The notes below the pieces were generated by a model, which saw only the letters and a program-made list of their open reading frames with translations, was not told the DNA's origin and ran no database searches. A stretch of DNA of 64,000 bases from an uncultured Bacteroidia bacterium. GTDB lineage: Bacteria; Bacteroidota; Bacteroidia; Bacteroidales; F082. Every line of letters begins with the position of its first letter. The stretch's first letter is position 1. Positions 56,555 through 64,000 of this stretch are shown piece after piece. Location: positions 62,001-126,000 of the forward strand of contig CADCGK010000006.1 of assembly GCA_902800965.1 (NCBI GenBank). The letters are read 5' to 3'. Both the position numbers and the translations under genes were made by a program.

Positions 56555-59500
56555 TTATGGGATCACGATCTTCTGGGTCCTGACTTTGTCGTTTTGAATC
56601 AACTGGATCACATACACACCAGGGGAGGTGAGAGGTGAGAGGTGAGAGGTTAGAGAAGAGAGATCCTTTGTGAAGAGTTGGCGGCCGAGAGCATCGAAGA
56701 CTCGGAGAGTACCTTGGCCATTGATGATGATCTCGCCGTTGTGGTAGAAGGCAAAGTTGTCTTGGTTGTTCAAGTTGTCTTCATTCACATTGAACATCAG
56801 TTTGAATCGGCTGGCGTAGTCGGTTATTTTGGCTTCAAACTCATAGCTTCCTGAAGCCAACAAGTCAATGTCGTTTCCAGTGAGGTTGTCGATCAGATGC
56901 AGGTAATTCACTTCCACGTCTTCGGCGTTTACGCTGATGGAATAGCGTCCATTTCTCGTCGCCTTGAAGTTGACGGGGAGTTCACCGCTTCCTGTGCTGC
57001 GCACTATGGCGTAGTCTTGGCTGTTTTCCGGAATACAAATCTTGGTGCTGTTCGGATTGAGTTGGAACTTGGGCAGGATTCCTCCTTCGTCAAAGCGGAT
57101 GATGGCATTGTCAATGGTTGTGCCTTGGTTGCGATTGATATTGATGTTGAGCATGGGGACTGATTTTGGCGAAATACGTGTCGCAGTGAAAGTAGCCTTT
57201 TGGTCATTTGTTGTAGCTGTTACGAACACGCCTTCCATAGGAGCGACAGCCGTCGTTTCGGTAGTGGCATTAAGCGCAGTGCCGTCGGCATTCATTCTGT
57301 AGTAAGGCAGGTCCAATGTAGCGTTGGTTCCGAAAGGATTGCCGATGAGGTTCCATCCCTCGAACTCAGCTCCAGAAACCTTGTCCAAACTAATCTGTCC
57401 GTCTCCGTTATAAGGTTGTCCGACAAACCTCAATGTGACATTTCCGCTGTTGGCATAAAGATAGCCTTTACCTGGAATTAGGCTGAAGTTGCCGTCGGTT
57501 CCCTCGTAATTGATCCATTCTAGCTCCTTGCTTTGGTTGAAATAGTAGAGGTCATAATTGTTTGCCAACATGTTCGCCACATTCTCAGGATTCACTTCTC
57601 CGACAGGGGAAGCGATGAGGTAGTAACGGTCGTTGCTGCCCTCGGTATAGGCGGTGATGTCCTTGGTGAAGATTTCTCCCACATAGACTTGGACGTTGTC
57701 GATATACCACATGCGGCCGCTGGTGCCGACACCCTTGTATTTGAATGCAATGTAAATATCCCTATCGTTATATGCTGACAAGTCGAGGCTAATGGTTGTT
57801 TTTGTCTTCGGGAATTCCGTAGCAGTCCACAACGTGTTGGTGAAGTCAAGCTTTCCATAACCTGTTGTTGATAAAACCACTGAGCTCTCTTCGCCGGAGC
57901 CATCGCCAGAGAATACCATGTCGAAAGTGAGTTTAGCAGCACCATTGATATGCATTTGAGGCAGGATGAGATAGGTTTCGCCTGTAGGCCAATAACTATA
58001 AGCCGTGCCTTGTTGGTCCAACGGATTGTATTGTCCGGAACTGTGTTGCCAGCCGTAATAATTACTAACTCTTATCCAGTTCCAGCACGCTGGCGGGAAA
58101 GCGGAGCTACTGAAGTCTTCGAACAAAGAGTTCTCTGTGTCGATGGGCCAAACGCCGCAGTCGGTGGTGAAGCTAACCGGCATCGAGTTCCATTCGCTTT
58201 GGTCTTCGGCATCGCAATAGGCTTGGATTCTTGCCTCATATTCAATGCCGCGTTGGAGCCCCGTCAAAGCAAACGGATTTTCCGTGGTTGGGAGCTCGGT
58301 AACATGAATCGGGTTGCTCCATTCGCTGGCGGAAGTCTTTTTGTATTGGATGTTCCATTCTGTTTCGTCCTTGCCAGGCTGCCAGACGAACGAAGCGGAA
58401 TTGTAAGTCACAGCTGTGTTGGTCAAGCCTGTAGGTATCAAGCATGAGGGGATTACTTCAACTGTTACGTCATCAATATAATAGTACAGATAACTGTCGG
58501 AGGAGCCACATTTGATGGCAATATTCCTGCCGTTTCCGGCATAACTTGTCAAAGGAACGGTGAACTCGGTGTAAGAGGTTGAAACACCTTCAACTAACTG
58601 AACTTCCGTGAAATTGCCGTTGTCCATTATACCGACCGAAAGCGTGTTGTCGGAAGAACCTGCTTTAGCCCAAAATCTGATTTGAAGGTCGTTCATGTTG
58701 TATGAATCGTCAATGGCTGGCAAGATAATGGTTTGGTTTGCAGAATTAGGTGTCCTGTACATACGTAAGCTCTTTGTGCCGCCATGCGCATCAGAGCTAT
58801 AGTCATAAACGTATGGATAATAAGTGTATGGTGAATAGCTGCCATATTGCATCTCGATACGATCCCAACATTTTGGCACTGAATAGGTCGAGAAATGCCC
58901 AGCTGTCTCCACGGCGCCTTCGAAGTCGCAGGAGTAGGGCGGTGTAATGGAAGCACAGGCTGTGGTTATCGTTTTGTCCATGCTTTGGTTGGCCAAGCTC
59001 CATTTGCTGTAGTCGTCGCCACCACACCAAGCACGCACGTTCACGTCGTATGACGTGGCAGGCTCCAAGCCCGTCAGCTCGTATGAATTTGACGGATTGT
59101 TTTCCACCAAAACGTAAGTGTATTCACTGGTAGAAGCCTTTCTATAGCGGAACTGCCATGCATTCTGGTCTTCAGCGCCCTTGGTCCAACTAAGCGTGAC
59201 TGAATTGGAACTGACGCTTTCCTCCGTCAAATAGGATGGTGCCAAGCATGTTGCCAAGGTGGTGAATGTCACCCTGCTACTCCATGCGCTCTTACCATCT
59301 TCGGCACCGCAGTTGGCCTGGATATAGATGTAATACTTGGTTTCAGGGGAGAGGTTTTGCAACGTATAGGTGTATTCACTTACGTTTTCAAGCTGGACGC
59401 GGGTGACATCTGTCAAAGTCATGTCCGAAGGGTCGAAGTCGTTTTTCGGCCTATAAGCCACTTCATAAGCGTCGGCGGTGCTTCCTGTCCATGAAACGCT

Positions 59501-61252
59501 GCCAGTATATGCAGTGTTTGAGTTTGTGACATAGCTCAAGTTCGGTTTTGGGCAAGTGGCAAGTGTAGTGAAGTCTTTGACATCGCTCCATGAGCTTTCG
59601 TCGGTGCCGAGCATCGATTTCACGCGAGTGTAATACTTGGTTTCAGGGGTAAGCCCTGTCAATTCTGTTGAAGCAGTTCCGCTGACATTGGTTTCCGTTA
59701 AGCTTTCAGTGAAAGTGTTGTTGGTGGCGTATTGAAGCACCCAATTGGTAGCGGTGCCGTTTTCAGTCCATGAAAGAGTTGCAGTGCGGCCAGTGATGTT
59801 ACTTGCAGTTAAATTGGTGGGTCTCGGGCAAGTCATAAAGCTGATGCTGATGTTGTCGATGGCTGCTGGGATAGTGGTGCCTCCGCTGCCGTCGTTACGC
59901 CAAATGAAGACCATGGTATAAGTGCCTGAAACGGCGGCTTCGGCAGACTGGGTTTGCCAACTGTCGCTCAGATTGAGTTTGCTACCACCGTCAAGGGCGA
60001 TCCAGCCATTAGGAAGCGCATTTGTGCCGACTCCAGTGTACAAACTGGTGCCAGCCGTGAATTCAACATCGCCGGGCGCCAAGGCCACGCGAAGATAGTC
60101 GTAGGTGCTTTCACCTTTGGCGTTCCAATCGAAGAAGAAGGTGTAAGTGCCTTGGGCAAAGTTGAACAGTTTGGAGACATAAATTGCCGTATTGCTGTGT
60201 ATATATTCGTAAGTTGTTCCACCGTCTTTGGAAACATATATGGATTTTTCGCCGCCGTTATTGACTGCACTGCCCCAGCACCAGGTGTTGGTTAGGGTTC
60301 CGTTTTCAAAGCTCCAGTCGTTACTGTTCTCAAAGTCTTGTGAATACGGGTTGTTTGAGTCAACAGTCAGGGCTTCGCGGGTGGTGACGAAAGTCTTGTT
60401 TGCCCATTTGCTCTTGTCATCGGCGGCGCAAACCGTGCGGACATAGACATAATAATTGGTCTGAGCCGTAAGGCCGCTCAAATCTTTGGAGCATTCTGTA
60501 ACCTGATATGTGGGTGTGGTGTTGTCGTCAGGAACGATGGTGGCGTCTGTTGTCACAAACACATCCCAGTTGCTCTGACCCTCAGCTCCCGCAGTCCAAG
60601 TCAACGTGGCGGTATGGGCAGTGATGTTGCTTGCATTGAATTGCTTGGGTTTCGTACAACCTCCGGTTGAGGCTGGTTCGTAAGTAAAAGTGGTCTTGGG
60701 GAGGAACTCTCTTGCAGTGCCAGCTCCTGAACCGCTGTTATTTCTAGAGGATCCTGATGGAGCTTGTATTCCAGAGAAAGTTGTGTTTTTATAAGTGGTG
60801 CTCTTTGTTTTGACATAAGTTCCGATAAGTAGGTTGCCGCCTTCATAGGTATAAGGTTCGTTCAATTCAATTTCCATGGCAGCTTGCGTATTGCTTAATA
60901 CACCTTCATAGACAATAGTGAAATTCGTTGGGCCGTTAAGGCTGCTGAGTGTGGTGCCTTCCACTTCGCCCATATATATTTGAATAACAGGGCTGCCCCA
61001 TGTGGCAGGGCTATTAGTAATATAGAATGTCAACTGTGATATTACACCACCGATTAATGCATCCATGCCTTCTGTAGTAGCTGGGATGATGAATTCCGAT
61101 GTTGTCCCTTGAGTGTCAACATACGAGCCATAAATAGGGATGTAGCTGTTGGTTGTCGTGCCATCACACACAGTCAGTGTTTCCTGTGCTTTCGCTTGCC
61201 ATGGCATGAGTATCGCCATTAGCAGGGATAGAAGTAAAAATTTTTTAAACAT
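56555..61252 (-). CDS. Giant T9SS-exported adhesin with FN3 and cleaved-adhesin-like domains, behind a cobalamin riboswitch
   Basis: A 1565-residue secreted protein. Signal peptide MFKKFLLLSLLMAILMPWQAKAQ. At least five fibronectin type III domains each begin C-x-x-P (e.g. CTKPKQFNASNITAHTATLTW, about 200; CPRPTNL, about 480; CLIPTGL, about 960). Three jelly-roll 'choice-of-anchor'/cleaved-adhesin-like domains start NPYSQDFEN, PPYSCDFEG and LFEDFSSSAFPPACW (about 305, 775, 1055), the type found in gingipain adhesins and HagA. The C-terminus is a T9SS sorting domain (LRVFDALGRQLF ... GVYVIQLIQ) into which a heptanucleotide array inserts LTSHLSPLTS. An alternative ATG at 61285 would add 11 residues. 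Confidence 0.9.
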   Translation of the reverse strand: MFKKFLLLSLLMAILMPWQAKAQETLTVCDGTTTNSYIPIYGSYVDTQGTTSEFIIPATTEGMDALIGGVISQLTFYITNSPATWGSPVIQIYMGEVEGTTLSSLNGPTNFTIVYEGVLSNTQAAMEIELNEPYTYEGGNLLIGTYVKTKSTTYKNTTFSGIQAPSGSSRNNSGSGAGTAREFLPKTTFTYEPASTGGCTKPKQFNASNITAHTATLTWTAGAEGQSNWDVFVTTDATIVPDDNTTPTYQVTECSKDLSGLTAQTNYYVYVRTVCAADDKSKWANKTFVTTREALTVDSNNPYSQDFENSNDWSFENGTLTNTWCWGSAVNNGGEKSIYVSKDGGTTYEYIHSNTAIYVSKLFNFAQGTYTFFFDWNAKGESTYDYLRVALAPGDVEFTAGTSLYTGVGTNALPNGWIALDGGSKLNLSDSWQTQSAEAAVSGTYTMVFIWRNDGSGGTTIPAAIDNISISFMTCPRPTNLTASNITGRTATLSWTENGTATNWVLQYATNNTFTESLTETNVSGTASTELTGLTPETKYYTRVKSMLGTDESSWSDVKDFTTLATCPKPNLSYVTNSNTAYTGSVSWTGSTADAYEVAYRPKNDFDPSDMTLTDVTRVQLENVSEYTYTLQNLSPETKYYIYIQANCGAEDGKSAWSSRVTFTTLATCLAPSYLTEESVSSNSVTLSWTKGAEDQNAWQFRYRKASTSEYTYVLVENNPSNSYELTGLEPATSYDVNVRAWCGGDDYSKWSLANQSMDKTITTACASITPPYSCDFEGAVETAGHFSTYSVPKCWDRIEMQYGSYSPYTYYPYVYDYSSDAHGGTKSLRMYRTPNSANQTIILPAIDDSYNMNDLQIRFWAKAGSSDNTLSVGIMDNGNFTEVQLVEGVSTSYTEFTVPLTSYAGNGRNIAIKCGSSDSYLYYYIDDVTVEVIPSCLIPTGLTNTAVTYNSASFVWQPGKDETEWNIQYKKTSASEWSNPIHVTELPTTENPFALTGLQRGIEYEARIQAYCDAEDQSEWNSMPVSFTTDCGVWPIDTENSLFEDFSSSAFPPACWNWIRVSNYYGWQHSSGQYNPLDQQGTAYSYWPTGETYLILPQMHINGAAKLTFDMVFSGDGSGEESSVVLSTTGYGKLDFTNTLWTATEFPKTKTTISLDLSAYNDRDIYIAFKYKGVGTSGRMWYIDNVQVYVGEIFTKDITAYTEGSNDRYYLIASPVGEVNPENVANMLANNYDLYYFNQSKELEWINYEGTDGNFSLIPGKGYLYANSGNVTLRFVGQPYNGDGQISLDKVSGAEFEGWNLIGNPFGTNATLDLPYYRMNADGTALNATTETTAVAPMEGVFVTATTNDQKATFTATRISPKSVPMLNININRNQGTTIDNAIIRFDEGGILPKFQLNPNSTKICIPENSQDYAIVRSTGSGELPVNFKATRNGRYSISVNAEDVEVNYLHLIDNLTGNDIDLLASGSYEFEAKITDYASRFKLMFNVNEDNLNNQDNFAFYHNGEIIINGQGTLRVFDALGRQLFTKDLSSLTSHLSPLTSPGVYVIQLIQNDKVRTQKIVIP
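56627..56661. repeat. Heptanucleotide tandem array 16 (5 units, inside the T9SS sorting domain)
   Basis: Units GGTGAGA, GGTGAGA, GGTGAGA, GGTTAGA, GAAGAGA, encoding SSLTSHLSPLTS between two strands of the sorting domain. Confidence 0.92.
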
Positions 61253-61396
61253 ATAATACAAAAGTTTTAAAGGTTTGTCAATCATCCAATTACCTCAAAA
61301 CTTCTGGAAAAATGTTGGAATATCTAAAAGGAAGACCGACCCCCTGAAAGGACAATCTTGTTATGTTGTAGAATCCCAGCTCCAATTCCCGGAAGC

Positions 61397-61572
61397 CTTG
61401 TTTCGTGACTTGAGGCAGGTCTTCTGACTGAGGCCTCGCTTCTGCCGCCTTCCCATCCGACGAGCGTCAGACAGTGGCAGAGTGGCAGGCGATTGGCCAT
61501 CACAGCAGCGGGAACTGTCCGGGATTCTCACCCGATTCCCTATTGAGTCCGTGAAGGACACCACAAATCAAG
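61397..61572 (-). promoter_or_regulatory. Cobalamin (AdoCbl) riboswitch
   Basis: The complete conserved core reads on the minus strand: GGGAATCGGGTGAGAATCCC, then GGACAGTTCCCGCTGCTGTGA, GCCACTG, GGGAAGGCGGC, and the B12 box AGTCAGAAGACCTGCC. The P1 stem pairs CTTGATTTG (61564-61572) with CGAAACAAG (61397-61405), one mismatch. A promoter box sits directly upstream. The downstream gene, 145 nt away on the same strand, is the giant T9SS adhesin. High cobalamin normally turns such genes off. I did not resolve the expression platform. Confidence 0.95.
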
Positions 61573-61574
61573 CG

Positions 61575-61582
61575 CAAAGATA
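61575..61582 (-). promoter_or_regulatory. -7 box driving the riboswitch transcript
   Basis: The minus strand reads TATCTTTG, ending 3 nt before the P1 stem, so transcription should begin at the riboswitch. The 382-nt stretch 61286-61667 therefore holds this promoter, the riboswitch and the leader, and no gene. Confidence 0.7.
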
Positions 61583-63665: not shown

Positions 63666-64000
63666 TCACTTGATTATTATTTTTTCTGTGTGAATATTCC
63701 CTTCATGCATGATGGAAATGAAATAGATACCTTTCTGATAGGCACTCAAATCAATGGTTGCCTCAGCTTGGGCGACCCTTGAAAGGACCAACTGACCCAA
63801 CAAGTTGTGGACGCGGAATTCGAACGTTGTGGGATAATCTGCCGAAAGGTGAATCAGTCCGTTGGATGGGTTGGGATAGACAGAGAACGAATTGTGGTTT
63901 TCGCTGACATTCACGTAATGATGCATCACTACGTGGATATTGAAGTCGATAGACTGTCCATCGCTGAAGGCTCTTAGCGTAAGATCCGCAACAGCCTCTT
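63666..64000 (-). CDS. Secreted protein with a T9SS sorting domain, C-terminal part
   Basis: The frame is open to the window edge; only the last 111 codons are visible. The end is a T9SS type A sorting domain: FSVYPNPSNGLIHLSA, FRVHNLLGQLVLSR, LSAYQKGIYFISIMH and the terminal KIIIK. The upstream residues (DLTLRAFSDGQSIDF) are beta-type. The function of the main body cannot be inferred. An apparent GTG start at 63929 is only internal. Confidence 0.88.
   Translation of the reverse strand, partial: EAVADLTLRAFSDGQSIDFNIHVVMHHYVNVSENHNSFSVYPNPSNGLIHLSADYPTTFEFRVHNLLGQLVLSRVAQAEATIDLSAYQKGIYFISIMHEGNIHTEKIIIK

Follow-up and report, generated by a model that had tools for sequence, protein, structure and literature searches.

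What purpose could a cobalamin riboswitch serve in front of the gene of a giant surface adhesin? The question is raised by a locus in the window, i.e., the whole stretch of 64,000 nucleotides of DNA that was analyzed, whose host genome (2.7 Mb in 21 contigs, listed as 100% complete) belongs to a group of mostly ruminant-gut Bacteroidales.

The riboswitch and its leader

The initial annotation had described a full cobalamin riboswitch having its own promoter and preceding, with no intervening gene, a T9SS protein of 1565 residues, and this description proved accurate. A full-length match to the RF00174 covariance model (positions 1–189) extends from 61580 to 61397 on the minus strand, with a cmscan score of 107 bits (E 1.8e-26) as compared to a gathering score of 31.5 bits; the −7 box TATCTTTG belongs to a TAnnTTTG box that is invariant across 18 orthologous leaders, and the 144-nt spacer between the aptamer and the adhesin ATG contains no gene (Table 1). 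Sequence comparison also revealed the L5–L13 kissing complementarity expected of this family (UUCCCG/CGGGAA), which is present in the window and kept in the 18 leaders, four of them having a one-base gap and one a mismatch.

The leaders of the 18 species can be aligned over ~380 nt up to the start codon, with a mean column identity of 81%. The P13 hairpin is separated by ~70 nt of less conserved sequence from a terminal hairpin, the probable expression platform, in which 99.5% of the cells are paired, a both-sided change is found at one pair and the z value of the element folded alone is −1.9. When P13, L5–L13 and the terminal hairpin are taken together, 99.0% of the cells are paired, vis-à-vis a maximum of 66% after sliding by 1–3 columns; since both-sided changes occur at one pair only, in five sequences, the support for the leader structure comes mostly from conservation and not from covariation.

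Other elements by which the leader might act were considered. An intrinsic terminator was ruled out, no terminator-like site being found in the window leader, and a conserved leader peptide was rejected: LSFQGVGLPFRYSNIFPEVLR could be translated from the window leader and a similar peptide is found in some relatives, but the reading frame is absent in six of the 18 leaders and is broken by single-base indels. A sigma70-like site (TTGACA-17-TATTAT, matching at 11 of 12 positions) is located within the leader, immediately 5′ of the start codon, at 61253–61281 of the minus strand; it could allow the riboswitch to be bypassed, although it is not of the Bacteroidota promoter type.

That cobalamin represses is presumed from what riboswitches of this class are known to do, and both the response to the ligand and its direction are predictions: plentiful cobalamin would cause the leader to lower adhesin expression, which would be permitted when B12 is scarce. 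In the ligand-bound state the kissing interaction between L5 and L13 would form and the conserved hairpin just 5′ of the start codon would be the element that blocks initiation. Because a terminator-like site is lacking, control would most likely be exerted at translation, and the cells would probably display the adhesin when B12 is scarce.

Table 1. Positions in the window of the leader elements, of the adhesin with its domains and of the neighboring DUF4465 protein
Feature	Position	Strand	Evidence
TATCTTTG, −7 box of Bacteroidota promoter	61575..61582	−	Read directly in the sequence
Cobalamin riboswitch aptamer, RF00174	61397..61580	−	cmscan, 107 bits
L5 loop UUCCCG, kissing partner of L13	61509..61514	−	Complementary to CGGGAA, kept in 18 leaders
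P13 hairpin (L13 loop CGGGAA at 61386–61391)	61378..61397	−	RNAalifold and pair counts, 18 leaders
Terminal hairpin, probable expression platform	61261..61304	−	8 nt before adhesin start codon; pair counts, 18 leaders
T9SS adhesin, 1565 aa	56555..61252	−	ORF reading and domain profiles
J1 jelly-roll, residues 303–474	59831..60346	−	Alignment; AlphaFold; Foldseek
J2 domain, tyrosine-rich, residues 765–945	58418..58960	−	Subfamily almost only in riboswitch-linked adhesins
J3 choice-of-anchor-J domain	57683..58150	−	NF038128, best stretch residues 1043–1189
T9SS type A C-terminal sorting domain, residues 1508–1564	56561..56731	−	TIGR04183, 35.4 bits (cut-off 23)
DUF4465 (BtuJ-like) 1062-aa protein, C-terminal end with T9SS sorting tail	63666..64000	−	Whole gene at L004 2667–5855, the rest beyond the window

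Recurrence of the pairing among relatives

The same riboswitch–adhesin pairing, which the initial annotation had proposed to seek in relatives, was searched for in 60 genomes of the genus, to which further genomes were added from a family-wide search. When the adhesins are defined by a J1 domain scoring at least 236 bits, the set comprises 27 proteins from 27 species of one genus, and all 27 are preceded by a cobalamin riboswitch. In 26 of these the switch is directly upstream (25, including that of the window, detected by a riboswitch motif and one, L138, by Rfam), and in the remaining genome, G054, the adhesin (locus L082) is the third gene of an operon having the order riboswitch–CoA-transferase–MarC–adhesin. 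On the other hand, no riboswitch was found upstream of 12 paralogous proteins (13 J1 domains, 198–236 bits), eleven of which were scanned with Rfam, the scan of the twelfth (L151) being limited to the motif. The riboswitch label is strongly clustered on the J1 tree, with three changes as compared to a mean of 12.3 after shuffling, and its two losses correspond to L138, in which Rfam does find the switch, and to G054. Among 149 genomes of the family J1 was found in 37, only one of which lies outside the genus; the pairing is confined to one genus, whose related species do not represent independent data points. Spread by plasmids was rejected, no plasmid match having been found. Conservation over 27 species gives good support to the earlier claim that the riboswitch controls the adhesin, and makes this control very likely.

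The same comparison bears on the alternative that the riboswitch was left behind when a B12 gene was deleted and that the adhesin is its neighbor by chance, for which a relative with btuB between the two would have spoken. In its favor, the adhesin of G054 is separated from the equivalent riboswitch by a CoA-transferase–MarC cassette; however, this order is exceptional and leaves the adhesin within the riboswitch operon, no btuB lies between switch and adhesin in any of the loci inspected, and in 26 species the pairing is direct, with a leader whose conservation reaches as far as the start codon. A deletion, highly improbable in our judgment, was rejected in view of the recurrence of the pairing in 27 species.

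The adhesin riboswitch of the window shares 91% identity over 300 nt with that preceding CoA-transferase, MarC and adhesin in the close relative G054, the aptamer core being identical, and the switch located before the CoA-transferase in the host genome is 97% identical to that preceding the DUF4465 protein gene in G054; the simplest interpretation is that the cassette has been exchanged between two riboswitch leaders, the adhesins remaining each under its own. The cassette, consisting of a CoA-transferase of the butyryl-CoA:acetate type and a MarC membrane protein, is found under cobalamin riboswitches in the host (L004 5862–7784) and in relatives (L082, L089, L092, L093 and L097), and in L093 and L097 it is extended by an AspT/YidE transporter gene. 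Its role may be to redirect succinate/propionate metabolism upon failure of the B12-dependent mutase. The host genome encodes methylmalonyl-CoA mutase, an enzyme that depends on B12.

Domains of the adhesin

The adhesin is read from the ATG at 61252, an alternative in-frame ATG at 61285 yielding a product of 1576 residues. Its N-terminus is signal-like, and the protein contains five fn3 stretches (137 bits) and two stretches matching choice-of-anchor J (82 bits; NF038128, 81.7 bits for a cut-off of 30). Export and anchoring by the T9SS are predicted from the type A sorting domain recognized by TIGR04183 and from the presence in the host genome of the translocon gene SprA (2500 bits). In the riboswitch-linked adhesins of L089, L090, L091, L088, L094 and L101 the first ORF stops short of the T9SS tail; for L089, L090 and L094 the C-terminal part is on an adjoining ORF, which may reflect a frameshift, a split gene or an assembly error.

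J1 taken alone is not matched by NF038128 in the window protein and is matched weakly in three of 19 members. Its AlphaFold model (pLDDT 92, pTM 0.90) retrieves with Foldseek the MAM domains of meprin and neuropilin and the modules CBM22, CBM4 and CBM61 and, lower down, the cleaved-adhesin domains K1 and K3 of Kgp, and the Pfam profile Cleaved_Adhesin (PF07675) has no match in the adhesin or in the 19 J1 domains. Thus, of the FN3 and cleaved-adhesin-like domains initially attributed to the protein, the former stand and the latter are reduced to a fold resemblance with Kgp K1 and K3; likewise, the analogy with the haem-binding gingipains and HagA extends to the fold and not beyond.

Could the adhesin itself bind corrinoids, through J1 or through the tyrosine-rich J2, and pass them to BtuG/BtuB? 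As far as J1 is concerned, the data argue against it. Homology with DUF4465 was ruled out by hhalign (probability 0.1%, no sequence or profile relation), the adhesin has no Pfam match to DUF4465, and the top 50 Foldseek matches of J1 include no DUF4465 structure. Furthermore, 48 conserved residues of the riboswitch-linked J1 are equally conserved in the riboswitch-free paralogues and only five are group-specific; J1 was consequently rejected as a corrinoid-specific domain and seems not to have been remodeled for a new ligand, which suggests that what changed is expression rather than the ligand of J1.

The case is different for J2, whose riboswitch-linked members score mostly 220–300 bits as compared to at most 153 for other J2-like domains, the exception being a 209-bit second copy within the riboswitch-linked protein L136. 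This subfamily, practically restricted to the riboswitch-linked adhesins, has a tyrosine-rich stretch and the group-specific conserved residues Y811, W861 and Y923, so that J2 may bind corrinoids; set apart as a subfamily by its additional conserved aromatics, it could bind a specific ligand. In BtuJ it is the tyrosines surrounding the corrin that form the binding site (PMC12751083). The J1 and J2 profiles have no matches among PDB sequences. Even considering J2 and the co-regulation of the adhesin with T9SS-exported proteins of proven B12-binder types (see below), we regard corrinoid binding by the adhesin followed by delivery to BtuG/BtuB as unlikely.

The rest of the B12 regulon

The host genome contains three cobalamin riboswitches, including that of the adhesin. 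The second is located 7.2 kb further upstream, before the gene run CoA-transferase–MarC–DUF4465 protein, and the third precedes an operon for two T9SS proteins, a Peripla_BP_2 protein and a DUF5074 propeller of the kind found in BtuG-associated loci. Across the genus, the riboswitch targets other than the adhesin are B12 genes, namely those for a DUF4430 T9SS protein followed by the DUF5074 propeller and Peripla_BP_2, for plug-domain TonB receptors and for the DUF4465 T9SS protein. The plug-domain receptor is riboswitch-controlled in several relatives, unlike its homologue in the host genome (L156, G000:C5:266535–267965), before which no cobalamin riboswitch was detected.

Two products of this regulon are likely corrinoid binders exported by the T9SS. 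The DUF4465 domain of the 1062-residue protein (Pfam, 183 bits) matches PDB entries 9qpm and 9fct with E about 1e-25, and its HI-loop motif TPAYF is invariant in all orthologues covering that loop; in relatives the gene is often under its own cobalamin riboswitch. DUF4465 proteins of eight distant clades bind B12, the HI-loop tyrosine being 97% conserved (PMC13398666). The other candidate, a T9SS-tailed protein of 403 residues conserved across the genus, is encoded by the gene that heads the main riboswitch operon (L005 5566–6777, G000:C3) and contains two tandem repeats, identified by Pfam as DUF4430 in 10 of 14 orthologues; its model matches the transcobalamin beta domain with cyanocobalamin (5np4; Foldseek probability 1.00, E 0.04), and extracellular bacterial transcobalamin-like proteins had earlier been predicted to bind B12 or its precursors (PMC1796856). 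Thus, the idea of T9SS-anchored corrinoid binding contained in the initial annotation finds support for the lineage, in these DUF4465 and DUF4430 neighbors, and not for the adhesin, with its MAM/CBM-like J1 built on residues common to riboswitch-free paralogues.

A probable role for the adhesin

The 107-bit aptamer, the conserved leader, the direct pairing in 26 of 27 cases and the regulon of B12 genes lead us to favor, with moderate confidence, the explanation that the adhesin is a T9SS-borne attachment protein induced by B12 starvation under riboswitch control, corrinoid capture being entrusted to other proteins of the regulon. Weighing against it are the distinct J2 subfamily, the relatives whose first ORF has no T9SS tail, the sigma70-like site and the restriction of the pairing to one genus. 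Exported and anchored by the T9SS, the adhesin would fasten the bacterium to a surface or to its partners, and corrinoids would be captured by the DUF4465 T9SS protein, the tandem DUF4430 T9SS protein and the BtuG/BtuF-like proteins; the adhesin function is suggested by the domain type.

A closely related reading holds that what is captured is neither a free corrinoid nor a neutral surface but a macromolecule or producer cell that bears B12 (a protein, vesicle or cell carrying corrinoids). The modular FN3/MAM-like architecture is suited to protein or glycan binding and the predicted expression is B12-regulated; yet sequence does not separate this reading from the preferred one, and we hold it to be quite improbable. 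A broader proposal, in which DUF4430, DUF4465 and the giant adhesin would be derepressed together to form a T9SS-displayed B12-harvesting surface, with the adhesin as a corrinoid-capture part (binder or scaffold), can be advanced only tentatively and appears doubtful.

If attachment under B12 starvation is indeed its role, a vitamin sensor governing attachment would tie a shared micronutrient to the place where a gut cell settles. Most of the surface proteins with which gut Bacteroidota are known to scavenge B12 are lipoproteins; in the present case an entire genus is predicted to send B12-binding domains and a large adhesin through the T9SS under cobalamin riboswitches. A cobalamin riboswitch paired with a T9SS adhesin was not found in the open-access literature, subscription papers being outside the scope of the survey.

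Comparison with known systems

In B. thetaiotaomicron, cobalamin switches of this kind are carried by the operons for B12-acquisition surface proteins (PMC12751083). The window switch resembles the RF00174 elements of the Bacteroides btu operons in its complete aptamer and L5–L13 complementarity and differs from them in its target, which is a giant T9SS adhesin made of FN3 and jelly-roll domains instead of BtuB or a Btu lipoprotein, and in the ~110 extra conserved nucleotides that, with a second hairpin, extend from P13 to the start codon.

Like the gingipains and HagA, which contain cleaved-adhesin (K) domains, the adhesin is a large T9SS protein and its J1 model resembles K1 (4itc) and K3 (3m1h) of Kgp; unlike them, it has no significant Pfam Cleaved_Adhesin match and no protease domain, and the Foldseek ranking places J1 nearer to MAM and CBM22. 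The domains of proven or predicted B12 binders are instead found in its regulon neighbors: DUF4465 with the conserved TPAYF HI loop in the 1062-residue protein, which has a T9SS sorting tail at its end, unlike the lipoproteins that represent BtuJ in B. thetaiotaomicron (PMC12751083), and two domains of the transcobalamin beta/DUF4430 type, also accompanied by a T9SS tail, in the protein encoded at the head of the main riboswitch operon, the adhesin having neither DUF4465 nor DUF4430.
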